Below are positions 43,393-60,886 of a DNA stretch of 64,000 nt, one piece after another. The DNA is from Vulcanimicrobiota bacterium (lineage in GTDB: Bacteria > Vulcanimicrobiota > Vulcanimicrobiia > Vulcanimicrobiales > Vulcanimicrobiaceae), in NCBI GenBank assembly GCA_003168375.1, contig PMSI01000001.1, positions 558,001-622,000 of the forward strand, read 5' to 3'. Made by a program: the position numbers and the translations under genes. The notes under the pieces are model-generated. The model had not been told where the DNA came from, made no database searches, and saw nothing but the letters and a program-made list of their open reading frames with translations. Every line of letters begins with the position of its first letter. Positions within the stretch are counted from its first letter, which is position 1.

Positions 43393-45666
43393 GTGGCCCG
43401 CGCACGGCTGTTGCTCCCCGCACTCGCGTTCGTGACGGCCGTCGCTGCGGACGCGCGGGGCCTGACCGCGCTCGGGTGCATCGCGGTGATCGGTTCCGTT
43501 GCCCACCGGAGCACGCGTCTCCCGGGGGTATTCGCACTCGCCGGGCTTCTGCTCGCTGCACGCTTTGGGCATCCGCCGATGCTGACCGAGGAGACGCATA
43601 CCGCGCGTTTCGCCGGGACCGTGGTCGGCGACGTGCGCACGGGCGACGGCGGTGCATCGTTTCCGTTCGCGCTCGCGACCGGAATCGTCGTTCGCGCGCA
43701 CGTTCGCGACGCCGACGTCGTTTCGGGAGAACGGCTCATCGTACGCGGACGGCTCGTTCCGTTCGATGAGGCGCGCAATCCCGGCGAGCCGTCACGGCGC
43801 GCGCTCGCCCTCGGCGATGGACTCGCCGGCGAGCTGGCGGGCGATCGCGTCGTGCTGCGCGCGCCGCCGGACTCGCGCGACGTTCGAACGTGGAGCGCAC
43901 GCGCACGCGCTGCGCTTTCGCGCCGGCTGCGCGAGGTGCTGCGGGAACCCGAGGCGACCGTGGTCGCGGGCGCGCTGTGGGGCGAGCGTGGAACCCTGCC
44001 TCAGGAGATCCGTGACGACTTTCAAGCCACCGGCACGGTGCACGTGCTCGTCACGGCGGGGCTGCATCTCGGGGTGATCGCGTGGCTTGCGGTGACCGCA
44101 CTGCGACTCGCGCGCGTGCCGCGCGTCGCGGCGTCGCTGGCGGCGATACCGTGCGTCGTCGCCTACGCCTGGCTCAGCGGCGCGCATCTGCCCTCGCAAC
44201 GCGCCGCCGCCATGGTGTCGGTCGCGCTGCTGGCTCGCGCCTACGGCGCACGAGCGGTCTCGTGGAACGCTCTCGCGCTCGCTGCGCTCGTCGTCGCCGT
44301 GATCTGGCCGGCCGCCGTGACGACGGTGTCGTTCGCGCTCTCGTTCTCGTGCGTCAGTGCGATTCTGCTGTTCGCGCGGCCGCTGCAGCACGCGCTCGAG
44401 CGGTGGGAGCTTCCTGAGCGCGTGCATGAGGCGCTCGCGCTGACGATCGCGACGCAGATCGGCGTCTGGCCGCTCAGCGCGGCGACCTTTGGGGTCGTCG
44501 CGCCGTACGCGATCCTGGCGAACGCGGCCGTCGTCCCCGCGACCGGGGTCGCGATGCTGGCCGGGATCGCCGCGCTGCTGCTCGGCGCGATCCCGGTCGC
44601 AGGCCGTGCCGCGGCGACGATCGCGGTTTGGGATGTCGACATCATTCTGCGGGTCGTCTCGGCGGTCGCGGCACTTCCGGGCGCACGCGTCTGGGTCGCA
44701 CCGCCGCCCGCGCTCGCGATCGTGGCCTACGACGCGGCGGCGATCGCCGCGGCGATCTTGCTGCGCCGCAGCGTGCGCGCCGCCGTCGCGATCGTCGCGT
44801 GCGCGAGCATCGCCGTACTCGTCACGACGCTGCGGCTCCCGGACGGGAAGCTGACGATCACGATGCTCGACGTCGGCCAGGGTGACGGGATCGTCGTGCG
44901 AACCCCGCGCGGCCACGTGATCCTGATCGACAGCGGCGGCCGCCTCGAGCGCGGCCCGGCCAGGGACGGCCGATCCCCAGCCGAGCTCGTCGGCGAACGA
45001 GTCGTCCTGGCCTATCTCAAGCGCGAAGGCGTCCGGCACGTCGACCTGCTGGTGAACACGCACCCGCACGGCGATCACGTAGGCGGATTCGCCCCGATCG
45101 TGCGCGCGTTACGGGTCGATGCGATCGCGGATAGCGGGCAAACGTACGGCGGACGCGCGTTCAACGACGGGCTGCGCGAAGCGGCCCTGCGTCACGTTCC
45201 GATCCACGTCGCACGCTGTGGCGACCGTTGGGCGACCGACGACGGCGTGACGCTCTCGGTGCTTTCACCCTGCGGCGCGCTCTTCGCCGACGGCAAGAAC
45301 GACGTCAACGAAAACTCGGTGGTCATCATGCTCGCCTATCGGGACTTCCGGATGCTGTTTATGGGAGACGCCGGATTTGCGGCCGAGCAGCGTCTGCTCG
45401 AGAACGGCGCCGACCTCCGTGCCGACGTACTCAAGGTTGGCCATCACGGATCGGCCTATTCGTCCGCACCGAGCTTCATCGTCGCGGTCCATCCGCGATA
45501 CGCCCTCATCAGCGCCGGCCGGCACAACCTGTTCGGCCATCCGGCAGCGGCTACGCTTGCGACGTTGCGCAACGCCGGAACGACGGCGTACCGGACCGAC
45601 CGCTGCGGCGCAGTCATCGTCGAACCGAGCATGAACACGCGCACGCTGACAGTCCTGCACTGTTAG
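43393..45666 (+). CDS. comEC: DNA uptake channel ComEC/Rec2
   Basis: 757 aa, GTG start. Inner-membrane channel for single-stranded DNA in natural transformation. N-terminal hydrophobic part and OB-like region, competence domain with many helices (about 180-470), and a C-terminal metallo-beta-lactamase-like domain from about residue 485: LDVGQGDGIVVRTPRGHVILIDSGG, NTHPHGDHVGGF and KVGHHGS are intact, as in functional nuclease domains. The 3' third is the parent-like version of three decayed fragments at 47.8, 58.5 and 60.8 kb. Confidence 0.94.
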   Translation: MARARLLLPALAFVTAVAADARGLTALGCIAVIGSVAHRSTRLPGVFALAGLLLAARFGHPPMLTEETHTARFAGTVVGDVRTGDGGASFPFALATGIVVRAHVRDADVVSGERLIVRGRLVPFDEARNPGEPSRRALALGDGLAGELAGDRVVLRAPPDSRDVRTWSARARAALSRRLREVLREPEATVVAGALWGERGTLPQEIRDDFQATGTVHVLVTAGLHLGVIAWLAVTALRLARVPRVAASLAAIPCVVAYAWLSGAHLPSQRAAAMVSVALLARAYGARAVSWNALALAALVVAVIWPAAVTTVSFALSFSCVSAILLFARPLQHALERWELPERVHEALALTIATQIGVWPLSAATFGVVAPYAILANAAVVPATGVAMLAGIAALLLGAIPVAGRAAATIAVWDVDIILRVVSAVAALPGARVWVAPPPALAIVAYDAAAIAAAILLRRSVRAAVAIVACASIAVLVTTLRLPDGKLTITMLDVGQGDGIVVRTPRGHVILIDSGGRLERGPARDGRSPAELVGERVVLAYLKREGVRHVDLLVNTHPHGDHVGGFAPIVRALRVDAIADSGQTYGGRAFNDGLREAALRHVPIHVARCGDRWATDDGVTLSVLSPCGALFADGKNDVNENSVVIMLAYRDFRMLFMGDAGFAAEQRLLENGADLRADVLKVGHHGSAYSSAPSFIVAVHPRYALISAGRHNLFGHPAAATLATLRNAGTTAYRTDRCGAVIVEPSMNTRTLTVLHC

Positions 45667-47818: not shown

Positions 47819-48216
47819 TATGTGCTTAGATTCCCCACGGCGATCATGTCGGCGGTTTTCCGGTCATCGTGAGAGCGCTGCGGGTCGACGCGATTGCGGA
47901 CAGCGGGCAACAGTATGGCGGCCGTGCGTTCAACCACGGGCTGCACGAAGCGATGCTGCATCATGTTCCTGTGCATGTCGCACGGTGCGGTGACCGGTTT
48001 TCGACCGACGACGGCGTGACGGTCTCGGTGCTCTCGCCCTGCGGCGCGCTCTTCGCGGACGGCAAGAACGACGTCAACGAGAACTCGGTGGTCGTGATGC
48101 TGCGGTATCGCGAGTTCCGTATGCTGTTCATGGGAGACGCCGGCTTCGCGGCCGAGCGTCGGCTGCTCGAGAGCGGGTTTGACGTGCGCGCCGAGGTGCC
48201 GCGCTTTATCGTTTAA
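47819..48216 (+). pseudogene. Truncated comEC C-terminal domain, copy 1
   Basis: From 47833 the frame reads PHGDHVGGFPVIVRALRVDAIADSGQ and continues close to comEC through FADGKNDVNENSVVVMLRYREFRMLFMGDAGFAAERRLLE. A stop codon (TAG 47827-47829) lies just before it, so there is no membrane part. Near the end about 13 codons are missing, including the KVGHHGS motif, and the frame stops after RFIV. It keeps the first metal motif but not the second, so it is unlikely to be an active nuclease. Shares its 5' junction with copy 2. Confidence 0.88.
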
Positions 48217-52325: not shown

Positions 52326-52781
52326 TCAGGTTGCAGAATCAGGGAACACCTCGAGCCCGAGTTCCATATCTAGATCGGCGATTATGCGCAGCACGTCTGG
52401 GTGAATGACGCAGCCCAGATGGAATTGGCCGGGAAAATTCAATTCGATCCATGCGGTGCCTTCTAATGCCAGTTGCCTTACAAATGAGGGCTCACGCATC
52501 AGCGGATCCAAAAACGTTCGCAAACGCGAGCTGACGTCCGGCGACTCTTCGTCAGGTGAGAAATCGTAGTACTGCTTGGATAGCGTCCACCGCGTATCTG
52601 GCTCAACATTCCTTCGCTTGAGGCCGTCGATCCCGATAACCTGATCCCCGGCCCTTACTTGCCTCGTCGGCCTTAAGCGAAGCCGAGTCGTAATGAGTTC
52701 CGGATCCATTGTCGGATGATGAAAGCCGAGACGAATCGTGAGCGATGCTGGCCCGGCAGACGTGGATGCATCACCCGTCAC
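52326..52781 (-). CDS. DUF4279-like probable immunity protein of the RHS toxin
   Basis: 151 aa, GTG start with GGAGGG 5 nt upstream. The motif order (LTIRLGFHHPTMDPELITTRLRLRPTRQVRAGD, TRWTLSKQY, SSRLRTFLDPLM, HPDVLRIIADLDMELGLEVF) resembles DUF4279 proteins, which are frequent immunity proteins downstream of RHS or CDI toxins. Lies 49 nt after the RHS gene on the same strand. It would bind and neutralise the C-terminal toxin tail; no experimental basis here. Confidence 0.7.
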   Translation of the reverse strand: MTGDASTSAGPASLTIRLGFHHPTMDPELITTRLRLRPTRQVRAGDQVIGIDGLKRRNVEPDTRWTLSKQYYDFSPDEESPDVSSRLRTFLDPLMREPSFVRQLALEGTAWIELNFPGQFHLGCVIHPDVLRIIADLDMELGLEVFPDSAT

Positions 52782-52830
52782 GGGTTCCCTCCAGGTCGCA
52801 ATCGCGCCTCGCCATTACAACGGACCATCT

Positions 52831-55800
52831 TCATTTCTTGCGTTTCTTATCCGGCGTGAACATATTATTAGCATTCCCTTTATTTGTCCATGATCCACCT
52901 GAGTTCTCGACCCAAACGTCGTCATTTGGCGCGATGAAGGTTTTCTGGTTGGGTGTATTCTGGACAAAGGCCTTGATTTGAGCATGCCATTGGCTGAATT
53001 TCGACCGATTGATCGGGACCGATCCCGGCGGCGTTTTCGCAGCGGTCTCTTCCGCGTGTATCATTTCGCGGATCTTGTCCCAGAGACTAGGGTGAGGTCG
53101 CGGCGGGAGCGGTTTACCAACGTGGTCATCATGAGGTTTGCCGCCCTTGGCTATGACGACCGGGCTGGCGTCCGCGCCGTCAGACGAATCGTCCCCGGCG
53201 GAGTCGGACGTGTTACCACCGCCGCCATTTTGGTTTGCCCACCAGGCCGCAGTGCCCCAGCCCGGATTGGGGTCGTGGCCCGAAGCGTCGGCAACAAAGC
53301 CGGAGGGGTCAGAGAACTCGTACGGATTGTTATTATCCCACATGAACGCCTTCTGGCTCATCGGGTCGTGGACACTGCCGGCATACGCGTCTGGCGTCGT
53401 CCATTTGCCAGTGCTCTCGTCGACCGCGCGTGCTCCCTGGAACGTCAGCCCGTTGTACTCAAAGCCTTCGAAGCGATCGTACTCGAGGTTGCCAGCAGTC
53501 CCGCATCCATGAAGCCCTTGACTATCGGTGTAGCAAGTTCGGTCGTTCGTGGATCCCGGAAAGATGTACGGAATCGAGTGCGTGCCTTGGTCCTTGTTCT
53601 TGTAGACCGTCGTGCCGAAGGACGCTCCGGCGTACGAGACGTTGTTGTGCATGCTCACGAACTGGTTGGCCACACCACGATCCAGGACCATGAGTTGGCC
53701 GGTGCCGCCGATGTCTGCCGTTGCTTCGACCTTCGCCTCTGTCAGAGCACCGGCGCTGTTCGTCACAAACAGGATGCCGTCGCCGTCATAGTGCACGTTG
53801 GACGATTCAATCTTGTACGCATGTCCCGAGGGCGACCATGCAACGCTGCTAATGGAAGTGTCGCCGGTTGCCAAAATGTGGTGATTTTCTGCGTCGTAGG
53901 TAAAGGTCGTGGTTGCGGTTGGTCCCGGATCGAATCCCGCGTTTACGCAATCGGTGATCGATGTGTTTACCGACATCTGGGCGATTTTGGCGACCAGGCG
54001 CGAGGCGCTGTCGTAGGTGTCGGTCTTGGTCAGTAGGCCGCAGTCTTCCCAGGGAAAAAACTCGGGGTCGCTATTCGGGACATATTGTTCTCTACTGGTC
54101 GATATAACGACCGCATTTACGGGGTCGACCGACGTCGGTCCTATTCCAGATGGCGGATTTCCCTTGGAAAGCAGCTGGCTCACCGGATTGGGCACCGCAG
54201 CCCCGTTCGCAATTTTCACGCGGTAAACGGCGGAGCTGGCGTCTCCGAGAGATTGATAGGCGTTCTCGCCGCGAATCGTGTTCCCGAGGGTCATTCGGAC
54301 GAGCCCGTACGTCGACGTGTTGCCGGTCCAACCAAGTAGCGCACCTTCGTCGTCGTGCGCGAGGAGCTGGTACGCGAAGGTTTGTGGGAGCGTCAGCGTG
54401 GAGAGCTGGCCAGTCGTGTCGTACGCCCACGTCGTCGGGCCGTATGCAGTGCCGGCACTCACGGGCGCTTGCGGGCTTGGCATTACGCTGCCGGTGAACG
54501 GATCGGTGCGAGACATTGCGCGTCCGGCATCCGTGTATGACGTCGCAAATGTGCCTTGCTGCGCGCCGTAGCCCACCTTCACACTACTACGGAGGCCGTC
54601 AGCCCGATAGTTATAGGAGAGGTACGGTGCGGCATTGAGTGCGCTCGATGCGACGTTGATGGCTTTTTTCCGGCCATTTGCGTAATAGTCGTACGTGAGC
54701 CGCGCCGGCGACGTGATGGACCCAGTGGTCGGCTCGTCCTTCTCGAGAAGCTTGCCGTCTGCGTCGTACCGCATCGTCTCCGTCCCATAGATGGCACCGG
54801 TCGAAGTCGCGACCCGACCGGCTGGATCGTACGTAACGGACTTATTCGGCGTGACGCCGCCATCGCTGAACTGAACGCTCGTCGTGCGACCCGCGTTGTC
54901 GTACGCGTACGTCGTAATCGTGCCGAGCGGATCCGTTACCGATGCCAGGAACCCCACGGTGGCATTTGTCGTGTCGTATGCGTTCATTGTCGCACGAACG
55001 ATCGCGATGGACCTGGGCGAGAATGAGTATTTCGTGACATCGCGGTCGAGCGCGTCGTGTGCCGAACCGCGGAGGTCCGTCCATGCCGCATTTGCTCCCG
55101 GGGAAGCCGGCACCCATTCTTGTGTCTTGTAGAGTCCCCCGTAGGCGAGGAAGCTGTTGCCGCCGATCGAGACGCTGCCGAGGCTGCCGCTCTGCGTGAG
55201 GTCGTAGAGGTAACGCGTAATCCAATTCGAGGCGTAGTTGTCCCAGGCGGCGTCATGCGGCAACTGAACCTCGACGAGCCGATCCGCGCCGTCGTACCAC
55301 TTTGAGGTGACGCCGGCGGTGCACGAGGATCCGGGCGCGCACCCGTAGTGATGTGTCTCGCTCGTTTCATTCCCGTCGAGATCGTATAGGAACGTGGTCG
55401 AAACGCTGCCCGCGCGCTGCGCTGGAGTTTGCGAAGCCTGGACGCTGCCGTCCGGATAGTAGGAGGTCGTCGCTTGCGTATTCCATCCGGCAATGCCGGT
55501 TGTCTTCCCACAGAGCGACGCCCCGTTCGCCGAGCTGTCGTCCGGATCGGCGACGCTCGTCACTCGGCCGAGCGCGTCCGTCGTCAGGACCGTCGTTCCT
55601 TGGCCCTTGCTGTAACAGCGCAAACCGCCATTCGTATCGTACCAGAACGTCTGGGTCGGAGTGTTCGTCGACCCGTCCGCCTGCGTGAAAGACTGCCCCG
55701 TGACTGACGTCGGCAGCCCGTAGTCGGCTCCAGTCTGCTGAGCGGTGCCGTACGAAAACGAAGTCGTATAGCTCATCGCTGAGGTCGCGCTCAAAAGCTG

Positions 55801-57111
55801 GCCGTACGGCTGGTATGAGGGATACGTGTAGTCGAAATGCTGGTGCGGAACCGCCGCCGCGAGCGTTGCACAGCGCGAGTCAGATACGGGAGGCGTGCCG
55901 GTCCAATTCCCACCCGCGAGATTCGTCGCGACGGGATCGCAGTACGCGACAACGTTATTGAACGTATCGTAATCGAATAACTGCGTCGCACGAATTGTGC
56001 CGACCGACGTCGGAGCGGACGGCGCGGCGACCGCAATTGTGTTGCCGTTCGCGTCGTACGCGTAGTCCGTCTCGTACGTCGATGGCGTTACCCCAGCGAC
56101 GTTGCCGCGCGGTTCCACCGTGGCGATCAAATTGTTGTTCGCGTCCCACGCCTCGGTGCTGACGAGCCAGGAACCCGTGCACGACGTTCCCTGTCCGGAG
56201 CTCGCTGTGCATTCTTGGGTCTGGGTCGGCCGGCCCGAACCGTCGACGACCCAATTGGTCATGTGGCCGTCGGTGTCGCGAAAGGTCGGCGTCGTCACGC
56301 CGGTCGTGTAGAACTCTTCTAGGTACATCGAGTAGTTCAAGCCGTCGGGAACGTAGCCGGGGTGCAACGACGTGTTTGTTCCGTCGGCAATCGTGGGGTT
56401 CACGGTTGCCGCATGCGCGATGGCGTAGAGGGTCGAGTTCGCGGCGCTCGTGCCGGTAAAGCCGAAGCCGAGATAACCACCGTCGTAGCCGCACCCGCTC
56501 GAGCTACCCCCGCACCACCGTGGGCCCGCCGCGTACCAGAGAACCGAGTCAGAGCCGATCGGATAATACCCAAAGAGTTGCACAGGCCGCGTACCGGCGG
56601 CGTTGTTGGGCGGTCGTGAGACTGACGCGAGATTACCGCTCGCATCATAGCCGTATTGAACGGTCGTCGCGTTGTCGGGATAGGTCAGTTGCTGCAGTAG
56701 CCGCTTGCCGTTCACGTCCGCGAATGAGAGGGTCGAAGTCATCCCGGACTCAGTGGTCGCGGTGATTTGATTGATTTTTCCGGTCGCCGAGGCGTCGCCG
56801 TTGTCCCAAGTGTAGTTAAAGGTGATGTGGGTGTTGCGATTGCGTCCAATGATCTGGTAGAGATGGCCGGCATAGCCGCCCACTGAGCTGAGCCAGGGAC
56901 ATGCGAGCGTTGGATTGCCGCCGTAAAAGTAGTACGTCGTTCCGGACTTCTTGGTCCACAGCCACGCGTTCGCGCCGCCCGGCGGCCCGCTGCCGTACCC
57001 CGGAGCGGACGCGGTCATGCCTCCGGAAGTCGTCAAGCAGATGCGGCCGGCAGGCTTCGACGCATCGCTCACGCCGCGCGACGCATCGCACAACGCGTTC
57101 GCGTGCCTCAA
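52831..57111 (-). CDS. RHS-repeat protein with C-terminal toxin-like tail, 5'-truncated
   Basis: 1426 aa as an open frame. Many YD/RHS repeats (FDYDTFNNVVAYCDP, YDYYANGRKKAI, YDADGKLLEKDE, TYDAENHHILATGD) lead to an RHS core ending: YEFSDPSGFV after the GARAVDESTGKWTTPD block. The last 110 or so residues differ in composition and contain HAQIKAFVQNTPNQKTFIAPNDDVWVENSGGSWTNKG, likely the toxin domain, but the toxin class is not recognised. There is no signal peptide or export domain at the N-terminus; the first 30-40 residues are antisense to a phosphoesterase gene, so the 5' part has been lost. Confidence 0.85.
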   Translation of the reverse strand: MRHANALCDASRGVSDASKPAGRICLTTSGGMTASAPGYGSGPPGGANAWLWTKKSGTTYYFYGGNPTLACPWLSSVGGYAGHLYQIIGRNRNTHITFNYTWDNGDASATGKINQITATTESGMTSTLSFADVNGKRLLQQLTYPDNATTVQYGYDASGNLASVSRPPNNAAGTRPVQLFGYYPIGSDSVLWYAAGPRWCGGSSSGCGYDGGYLGFGFTGTSAANSTLYAIAHAATVNPTIADGTNTSLHPGYVPDGLNYSMYLEEFYTTGVTTPTFRDTDGHMTNWVVDGSGRPTQTQECTASSGQGTSCTGSWLVSTEAWDANNNLIATVEPRGNVAGVTPSTYETDYAYDANGNTIAVAAPSAPTSVGTIRATQLFDYDTFNNVVAYCDPVATNLAGGNWTGTPPVSDSRCATLAAAVPHQHFDYTYPSYQPYGQLLSATSAMSYTTSFSYGTAQQTGADYGLPTSVTGQSFTQADGSTNTPTQTFWYDTNGGLRCYSKGQGTTVLTTDALGRVTSVADPDDSSANGASLCGKTTGIAGWNTQATTSYYPDGSVQASQTPAQRAGSVSTTFLYDLDGNETSETHHYGCAPGSSCTAGVTSKWYDGADRLVEVQLPHDAAWDNYASNWITRYLYDLTQSGSLGSVSIGGNSFLAYGGLYKTQEWVPASPGANAAWTDLRGSAHDALDRDVTKYSFSPRSIAIVRATMNAYDTTNATVGFLASVTDPLGTITTYAYDNAGRTTSVQFSDGGVTPNKSVTYDPAGRVATSTGAIYGTETMRYDADGKLLEKDEPTTGSITSPARLTYDYYANGRKKAINVASSALNAAPYLSYNYRADGLRSSVKVGYGAQQGTFATSYTDAGRAMSRTDPFTGSVMPSPQAPVSAGTAYGPTTWAYDTTGQLSTLTLPQTFAYQLLAHDDEGALLGWTGNTSTYGLVRMTLGNTIRGENAYQSLGDASSAVYRVKIANGAAVPNPVSQLLSKGNPPSGIGPTSVDPVNAVVISTSREQYVPNSDPEFFPWEDCGLLTKTDTYDSASRLVAKIAQMSVNTSITDCVNAGFDPGPTATTTFTYDAENHHILATGDTSISSVAWSPSGHAYKIESSNVHYDGDGILFVTNSAGALTEAKVEATADIGGTGQLMVLDRGVANQFVSMHNNVSYAGASFGTTVYKNKDQGTHSIPYIFPGSTNDRTCYTDSQGLHGCGTAGNLEYDRFEGFEYNGLTFQGARAVDESTGKWTTPDAYAGSVHDPMSQKAFMWDNNNPYEFSDPSGFVADASGHDPNPGWGTAAWWANQNGGGGNTSDSAGDDSSDGADASPVVIAKGGKPHDDHVGKPLPPRPHPSLWDKIREMIHAEETAAKTPPGSVPINRSKFSQWHAQIKAFVQNTPNQKTFIAPNDDVWVENSGGSWTNKGNANNMFTPDKKRKK

Positions 57112-58213
57112 CGAGTCACCGCCCTCCGGACCGCGGTTCAGCTCGCGGCGTTGGATCGCGGTGAACTCGACCTTCTCGCCCTATTGCCCGAACGCAGGAT
57201 CGTTCTTCCTGTACGTTCCGCAATTGCAACGCGCCGTCTACTGGGAAATCGCGAGAACATACGGCCTCGGCGATCGCTTTTTCGCGGCGACGTCGAGCGC
57301 GTCGTATCCGCCGCATCAGTTCATCGTCGCCGGCGACCTCTCGATCACGTGGCCGCGCAGCGGCGGCCGGGTGTGGCACCTCTCCGAAGACCCGGGCTAC
57401 AGCTGTTTCAACGCGACGCCGGGCACGCACGACCTCAGCGTCGTCGGCCCGAACGTGTTCTCGATCCCGCTGACCATCGAGGGACCGGACGGCGGATGCT
57501 ACCAGCGGGCCACCTACGGTGATCGCCTCACCGAAGCGAACGCGACGTGGCGCCACTACTCGACGGCGCTTCCGGCATCCAAAGGGATCTTTCCGTTCGA
57601 CGGCTTCAGCAACATCACGGCATGGTACCGCCAGACGATCAATCTTCCGACGGCGCAGTTCCGCGGGTCGACGAACGTTCTCGACGACGCGTCCTCAGGG
57701 CAGTTGCCCAATTTCGTCTGGGTCAAGCCGCCGTGCGTCAAACAGAGCGATCATCCGGGGACCGGCCAAGGGAAGCACGGTCCGAACTGGGTCGGCAGCG
57801 TCATCAACGCGATCGGGAAGGGACCGAATTGGGACAGCACGGTGATCTTCGTCATCTGGGATGACTGGGGCGGCTACTACGATCACGTCGTCCCGCCCGC
57901 GCCCGATGCGCAACGCGAGGAGCTCGAGCGCGGCGTGCGGATTCCGTTCCTGGTGATCTCGCCGTTTCTCGCGCACCCCGGCGGCGTCGTGCACACCCAG
58001 GGACATCCGGGTTCCATCATGCGCTTCGTCGACGACTTGTACGGTACGAAGCCGCTGACCGCGTTCGACGAGGGGGCGCCCGATCTGGCCCGCTGGTTCG
58101 ACTTCACGCGGGCGCCCCGCAGATTCGTCCCGATCGCCGGCGCGACGGGCAAGGGCAACGCGTGGGACGACCACTGGTGCGACGGAGCGTCGAAGATCAA
58201 AGTCGACTCTTGA
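56951..58213 (+). pseudogene. 5'-truncated phosphoesterase (phospholipase C/acid phosphatase-like)
   Basis: The open frame is 420 aa, but family similarity begins only near 57170 (SPYCPNAGSFFLYVPQLQRAVYWEIARTYGLGDRFFAATSSASYPPHQFIVAGD), followed by NFVWVKPP, STVIFVIWDDWGGYYDHVVPP and RIPFLVISPF, the alkaline-phosphatase-superfamily C-terminal metal region. The N-terminal part with the catalytic nucleophile and the usual QENRSFDN-type motif is absent. The frame upstream of about 57050 is antisense to the RHS gene. Confidence 0.8.
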
Positions 58214-58529: not shown

Positions 58530-58764
58530 TATGTGCTTAGGTTCCCCACGGCGATCATGTCGGGGGATTTCGCGCCAATCGTGCGCGCGCTTCGCGTCGG
58601 CGCGATGGCGGATAGCGGTCAGACGTATGGCGGACGTGCGTTCAACGACGGCCTGCGCGAAGCGGCCCTACATCGCGTTCCGATTTACGTCGCACGGTGC
58701 GGTGACCGGTGGGCTACCGACGACGGTGTCACGCTGTCGGCGCTCTCACCGTGCGGCGCGCTGG
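58530..58764 (+). pseudogene. Truncated comEC C-terminal domain, copy 2
   Basis: Starts with the same junction as copy 1 (TATGTGCTTAG, then TTCCCCACGGCGATCATG). A one-base insertion in the stretch after GGCGATCATGTCGG breaks the frame; after it ALRVGAMADSGQTYGGRAFNDGLREAALHRVPIYVARCGDRWATDDGVTLSALSPCGAL follows comEC closely. Similarity ends abruptly at 58764, before the FADGKND segment. Confidence 0.85.
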
Positions 58765-59682: not shown

Positions 59683-60710
59683 ACCTTGTCCCCCGACACG
59701 AGCTTGGAGGCGGATCTGGCCCAGTGCTCGAGCGCCGCGACGCTCCGCGGTGTCGGCGGGGGTTCGCTACGCAGCAGATCCGCCAGCGTCGAGCCGCCCG
59801 CGGGCGTCTTGAACACGTAGACCACGACGCCGCACGTCAGCCCATCGTCGTCGAGATGCGCCAGAACCTGCTCGACCCCCGTCGCGCCGAACACGTAGCT
59901 GAAGTTCCGACCGTTGCCGAGCGTCTGCGATGTACCGGATTGCGTTGCGATCGACCACCGAATCTTCGCAGCGAGCTGCGGCGGTTCGACCTCGGCGGAG
60001 AAGAGCGTCGCACGGCCGGCGATCGCGATGCTCGCGTCAGCCGGTCCGGTGATGGTCAGACTGTGCACATGCGGTTCCTTCTTCGAACATTTTGGGCAAC
60101 GCGGAGGCAGGAGCAGCCGCAGCCGCCATACGACGGCCGTGATGATGATCGCGATCACCACGAAGAGATACGGTGGTGTGACGATCGCTTTGTACCACGG
60201 AGACGGAGGAGACGTGGGTACCGGGGTGGCGGGGGCGGCCGTCGGCAGCGTGGAGGGCTCGGCGCTCGGCGCCCCGCTAGTGTCCTCGGTCGACGGTGTC
60301 GTGACGACGGTCGTGGGTTGAGCGGGTACAACGGTCGGCGATGGCGTGACGACGGGAGGTGCTTGCGCCGGCGGGATCGCGGCGCTAAAGACGGCGGCCG
60401 GAATCAGGTCGATGCATGCGTAGTCGTACATCGCTCCGCCCGGTGGCCGTCCGCAGCGTTGAATGGCGTCGACCAATGCACCGGGGTTTTGGTAGCCGCG
60501 CCTTTGGAGGCACGACGTTACCTGCGCCGCATCGCCATGGCTCGAATCAGCACAGCGTCTCGCATAGACCGCTGTCGTGAGCGGTGCGGCCGTGCCTCTC
60601 GGCGGTACCTCCGGCTGCGCGACCGCAATGCGGGTCGTCACGACGATCGCCGCCGCTATCATGGCCAACCGCGCAAGCCGCGCGACGAGTGAGCCCGCTC
60701 TCGTCGACAT
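59679..60710 (-). CDS. Bitopic membrane protein with zinc-ribbon-like CxxC and PKD-like domain
   Basis: 343 aa from ATG 60710. N-terminal signal/anchor (about 6-30), a Cys-containing exported region (YARRCADSSHGDAAQVTSCLQRRGY, IQRCGRPPG, YDYACIDL), a long Pro/Thr/Ser linker, a membrane helix (about 175-198; YLFVVIAIIITAVVWRLRLLL), the dyad CPKC and a C-terminal PKD-like beta domain. A Ser/Thr/Pro linker joining two folded parts across a membrane suggests a sensing or scaffolding role. The gene start lies 50 nt from the comEC tail fragment on the other strand. Confidence 0.6.
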   Translation of the reverse strand: MSTRAGSLVARLARLAMIAAAIVVTTRIAVAQPEVPPRGTAAPLTTAVYARRCADSSHGDAAQVTSCLQRRGYQNPGALVDAIQRCGRPPGGAMYDYACIDLIPAAVFSAAIPPAQAPPVVTPSPTVVPAQPTTVVTTPSTEDTSGAPSAEPSTLPTAAPATPVPTSPPSPWYKAIVTPPYLFVVIAIIITAVVWRLRLLLPPRCPKCSKKEPHVHSLTITGPADASIAIAGRATLFSAEVEPPQLAAKIRWSIATQSGTSQTLGNGRNFSYVFGATGVEQVLAHLDDDGLTCGVVVYVFKTPAGGSTLADLLRSEPPPTPRSVAALEHWARSASKLVSGDKV

Positions 60711-60767
60711 CCTCGGTGACACGGTTCGACTGCCCGTTAGAGCAACCTTCCGGAGGCGTGCTCGCGT

Positions 60768-60886
60768 TCGACTCACCCAACGCGCTCGCGGCTCTCCGCC
60801 GCGCGAGCGCGACCGTTTACCGCACTCACGCCATCATCGTCGAGCCGGACGCGAACAGCCGCACGATCACGGCCCTCCACTGCTAG
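60768..60886 (+). pseudogene. comEC 3'-end fragment, copy 3
   Basis: Encodes SPNALAALRRASATVYRT then IIVEPDANSRTITALHC and a stop, matching the last residues of comEC (ATLATLRNAGTTAYRT, VIVEPSMNTRTLTVLHC) with loss of about four codons. Similarity continues for some 20 nt past the stop (TAGTCxGGC, GTACCG). It could be the tail of copy 2, separated from it by about 2 kb. Confidence 0.8.

Follow-up and report, generated by a model that had tools for sequence, protein, structure and literature searches.

An RHS-repeat gene with a variable C-terminal tail precedes a DUF4279 gene

The window analyzed here is a stretch of 64,000 nt from a Vulcanimicrobiota bacterium (assembly GCA_003168375.1, contig PMSI01000001.1, positions 558,001 to 622,000 of the forward strand), and coordinates below are relative to it unless another locus is named. 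An RHS-repeat open reading frame (ORF) of 1,426 aa, listed with a TTG start, occupies positions 52831 to 57111 on the minus strand. Its repeats were recognized by PF05593 in Pfam (E = 4.6e-15) and by TIGR01643 (E = 7e-12); the match to Rhs_assc_core (TIGR03696) remained below its cutoff (19.7 versus 32.5 bits). ORFs on the plus strand within this gene were left aside as shadows of the high-GC frame.

The next gene on the minus strand (positions 52326 to 52781), 49 bp downstream of the RHS ORF, encodes a protein of 151 aa and is the predicted cognate immunity gene. A first-pass annotation of this DNA, made from the letters alone, had credited it with its own strong Shine-Dalgarno sequence and had called it DUF4279-like. 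Both assignments hold: a GGAGGG read directly at positions 52787 to 52792 of the minus strand lies 5 nt upstream of the GTG start, and the protein matches DUF4279 (PF14106) with 29.8 bits (E = 8e-7), above the curated Pfam gathering cutoff of 25.

Alignments of the window RHS protein to paralogs from its own genome and to relatives of the same family end at about residue 1273, and RHS relatives no more than 56% identical to it lose the match at the same point. The motif YEFSDPSG (residues 1264 to 1271; positions 53299 to 53322, minus strand) marks the end of the conserved core, as proposed earlier. What follows is a variable tail of 155 residues, composed of a low-complexity linker of 84 residues rich in Gly, Ser, and Asp (positions 53047 to 53298, minus strand), to which no homologs aligned, and a C-terminal putative toxin domain of 71 residues, referred to below as the tip (positions 52834 to 53046, minus strand). 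The first-pass estimate of about 110 residues for the tail is therefore too short for the tail as a whole and too long for the domain. The closest relative of the window RHS protein bears a different tail. With a GC content of 0.486, the toxin domain lies below the immunity gene (0.554), the RHS core (0.607), and the window as a whole (0.677), and no core stretch as long as the toxin domain falls below 0.533, a profile that fits a swapped tip.

Elsewhere in the same genome, at C6:767051-776536 (L002, L004), a full-length RHS paralog ends in another unassigned tail (HSFAHAAERHFVENG...) and is directly followed on its 3' side by a 156-aa gene with no Pfam match; a third RHS copy, apparently frame-shifted, lies there in tandem.

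The tip belongs to a family encoded beside DUF4279-like genes

When the tail was compared with Pfam, NCBIfam, PHROGs, PADLOC, and PDB sequences, no significant match was obtained, in line with the earlier remark that it resembled no known toxin family. A single match of one family member to Ntox28 (E = 0.089) was judged to be due to chance because Ntox28 is listed as all-alpha. Single-sequence tblastn searches of plasmids and phages with the tail found nothing, nor did a single-sequence scan of viral contigs. The family was opened only by a degenerate DNA pattern for VWxxNxxGxWTN, which matched one IMG/VR contig; the encoded protein aligns across the whole toxin domain, and the next gene is DUF4279-like. 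The growing tip alignment added further IMG/VR contigs and four genome contigs, one from a Bradyrhizobium metagenome-assembled genome (MAG) and three from Rhodospirillales MAGs, and yielded the consensus GSxPINxTxWSGDHxxIKxAV...IxPxGxVWxQNPDGSWTNHG...GKPSGRRGKDRD. Among the other 148 genomes of the phylum searched (149 in all), no relative of the tip was found.

Outside the window, 11 intact and distinct copies of the tip were collected. Three of these lie in tandem on a single IMG/VR contig and four on further IMG/VR contigs; the Bradyrhizobium MAG holds one, and of the Rhodospirillales MAG copies, one has an RHS core and two are near-identical. A DUF4279-like gene comes next in all 11; its start lies no more than 56 bases upstream, or 3 bases downstream, of the toxin gene's stop. 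In the Rhodospirillales contig L062, the tip stands behind a typical RHS core, recognized by reading the sequence; in the remaining members, including those on IMG/VR contigs, it follows other N-terminal regions. The three tandem units of tip and DUF4279-like gene (L045:8865-12717), the later ones with shortened N-terminal regions, resemble an array of spare cassettes.

We then scored the window proteins against profiles built from the relatives only. The tail scored 56.3 bits (E = 1.6e-16), compared with 10.7 bits for the best of 1,000 shuffled sequences, and the immunity protein scored 54.1 bits (E = 9e-16), compared with 4.2 bits for its best shuffle. In a six-frame scan of the window with both profiles, the only significant matches were the ORF with the RHS tail and the DUF4279 ORF. 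All DUF4279-like partners align over their full length and share the motifs HPxIDPxxIT, LPGxxNIG, and GIEVFP, although two of those tested score below the Pfam cutoff (E of about 0.001 to 0.002). When the immunity protein was used as the query in a separate search, seven IMG/VR contigs were recovered, each of them already present in the toxin set; one of them, L098, carries a frame-broken, decayed pair. Charge complementarity between tip and immunity protein was not a constant feature across the pairs.

Altogether, the results support a toxin-immunity pair, since the tail and the DUF4279 protein each match families that were built without the window and that occur as adjacent pairs. The pair also occurs outside this genome. 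The possibility of a new pair raised by the first-pass annotation is supported as regards the pairing, which is seen again in unrelated genomes, where the N-terminal modules ahead of it differ; the word "new" applies only relative to curated libraries.

Another genome belonging to the same family (L033:214-1833) encodes an RHS-type protein whose tail differs (DVHQMKADT...SYVWDGNG), with a strong DUF4279 gene (E = 7e-16) directly behind it; DUF4279 therefore seems not to be tied to a single tip in this lineage.

The RHS gene lacks its 5' end

The two RHS paralogs of the genome, of 1,664 and 1,672 aa, both begin with a hydrophobic leader, identified by eye, and continue with a DUF6531 domain. 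The window protein aligns to them only from its own residue ~46, corresponding to paralog residue 296, and so lacks about 295 N-terminal residues that both paralogs have; in the whole genome, this part is present only in those two proteins. The first-pass annotation made no mention of this truncation. The RHS-homologous portion of the ORF is confined to positions 52834 to 56976 (minus strand), and its initial ~45 codons are antisense to a PF04185 phosphoesterase ORF on the plus strand (positions 56951 to 58213). The phosphoesterase is itself 5'-truncated, with homology to relatives from about position 56981, and is missing the N-terminal 75 to 80 or so residues of a 488-aa relative. Because the two genes face each other head to head and each loses its 5' end at the same point, we interpret positions 56976 to 56983, where RHS homology stops and phosphoesterase homology starts, as a rearrangement breakpoint, although the join could instead be an assembly error.

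Fragments of the 3' end of comEC are repeated in the window at 81 to 84% identity (positions 47833 to 48197, 58544 to 58762, and about 60584 to 60886, the last spotted by eye in translation), in addition to the complete comEC at 43393 to 45666 (plus strand). The first two flank a segment of ~10 kb containing the RHS locus, and the fragments may have been left by recurrent insertion or recombination beside comEC.

With the N-terminal ~295 residues gone, the usual RHS export route is probably missing, and judged from its sequence the window protein probably does not leave the cell by that route. The repeats and sharp core end, the recurring variable tip, and the adjacent immunity gene are those of an RHS polymorphic toxin; the N-terminal export or delivery part is absent, and we therefore term the window copy a truncated derivative rather than a working system.

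The window tip is the most divergent member of its family: it does not have the D of GDH, the H of TNHG, or the GKPSGRRGKDRD end that other members conserve, the basic GKPSGRRGKDRD end being replaced by TPDKKRKK, and for this loss of conserved residues the tip may be weak, inactive, or dead. The DUF4279 relatives closest to the window protein (46 to 47% identical) are found in two sister genomes, G092 and G095, with neither an RHS gene nor a tip upstream, and hence the immunity gene alone appears to have been kept there; in one of the two, the gene downstream of the DUF4279 relative resembles SMI1/KNR4 by eye. These features, together with the 5' truncation, lend some weight to a reading in which the tip has decayed along with its gene and the DUF4279 gene alone is retained as an orphan immunity gene. 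Against it, the frame through the RHS part and the tip is unbroken for more than 1,370 codons, which argues against an old pseudogene, and the tip has not lost the H, IK, VW, and GSWTN residues, which are the most strongly conserved. We regard complete decay as a serious possibility but the less probable one.

Predicted structure of the tip and its relation to known toxins

An AlphaFold model of the tip (12 sequences) reached a pLDDT of 77 and a pTM of 0.66. It comprises a helix (residues 30 to 39) followed by a three-stranded meander (strands 48 to 50, 55 to 59, and 65 to 70), with the conserved His33 and Lys37 on the helix (numbering of an 83-aa segment) and low confidence at the end of the window tip. 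Searches with this model against PDB and BFVD using Foldseek and VIA-align gave no significant structural match. The immunity model (pLDDT of 84) likewise had no significant match with Foldseek and VIA-align, its weak ferredoxin-like matches being at chance level.

In the BECR fold of RNases, a helical segment leads into a meander of four strands (PMC3482391). The predicted tip resembles this description in its N-terminal helix ahead of a beta meander and its conserved His and Lys; unlike that fold, the model, at a pLDDT of 77, has only three strands and no significant match to solved structures. From this model, an RNase-like toxin with a small helix-plus-sheet fold may be tentatively suggested, and the likeliest activity would be that of a compact nuclease that cleaves RNA without a metal ion by means of the conserved His and Lys, a proposal in which we place limited confidence.

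It is well established that RHS carriers have swapped tips, with immunity genes downstream (Zhang et al. 2012, PMC3482391). The window locus has in common with these systems the repeats, the core end, a swapped low-GC tip, a downstream immunity gene, and paralogs with other tips; unlike them, it has no N-terminal export part, and its tip falls in no curated family by sequence search. A second precedent is a Salmonella Rhs-Ntox33 protein beside which DUF4279 was proposed as the immunity protein (PMC13304343), again an Rhs protein that ends in a small toxin and is encoded beside a DUF4279 gene; the window tip differs in having no detectable Ntox33 match and another motif spacing.

That precedent raises an alternative in which the tip is a distant Ntox33 member, so that neither half of the pair would be new. 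Like the tip, Ntox33 is a small alpha+beta domain (65 positions) whose motif contains His and Lys (PMC3482391), and its reported DUF4279 neighbor in Salmonella agrees with this proposal. However, none of 11 tip family members, the window tip included, matched Ntox33 (PF15533) in Pfam even at E ≤ 10, and the genome itself contains no Ntox33 at E ≤ 0.01. Neither published motif, [DN]xHxxK or DxxxD (PMC3482391), is present in the tip family, whose DHxxIK (WHAQIK in the window) has a different spacing from the former. Membership in Ntox33 is therefore considered unlikely, and for want of a match or motif we file the tip as an unclassified tip family within the known RHS toxin kind.

It is very improbable that the tail is only a generic beta-hairpin ending (VWxxxPDGSWxNxG) and not a toxin: pattern scans did find this hairpin in unrelated phage proteins that lack the rest of the domain (L053, L054, and L056), but the window tail matches the entire family profile, including the PIN...H..IK part ahead of the hairpin (56 bits), and a DUF4279-like gene follows all full matches and none of the hairpin-only proteins.

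Discussion

The reading we prefer, and hold to be likely, is that the ~71-residue end of the RHS protein is a polymorphic-toxin tip, that the DUF4279 protein is its immunity protein, and that the window copy is a remnant or a silent cassette. In intact systems, the RHS shell would deliver the tip to a rival cell, in whose cytosol the tip would act once freed; the DUF4279 protein would neutralize the tip, presumably by binding it. The window RHS gene would have lost its export end through rearrangement, leaving a tip that could be used only once recombined onto an intact RHS gene and an immunity gene that is possibly the part still useful.

Whether the tip represents a previously undescribed family of minimal (~70-residue) toxin domains with a dedicated DUF4279 subclade, spread across phyla and phage-like elements and possibly having a new fold or target, is close to an even question, on which we lean slightly to the negative. 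Absence from curated libraries does not show that the tip is undescribed, as most of the subscription literature lies outside the search.

The pair provides a short, testable toxin domain outside curated libraries that is consistently accompanied by the same kind of neighboring gene, and it strengthens the case for an immunity role of the DUF4279 family. How polymorphic toxins are generally understood is unchanged, this pair being a further example of a familiar class of weapons; the truncated carrier is a concrete case of RHS tips and immunity genes outliving the export part.
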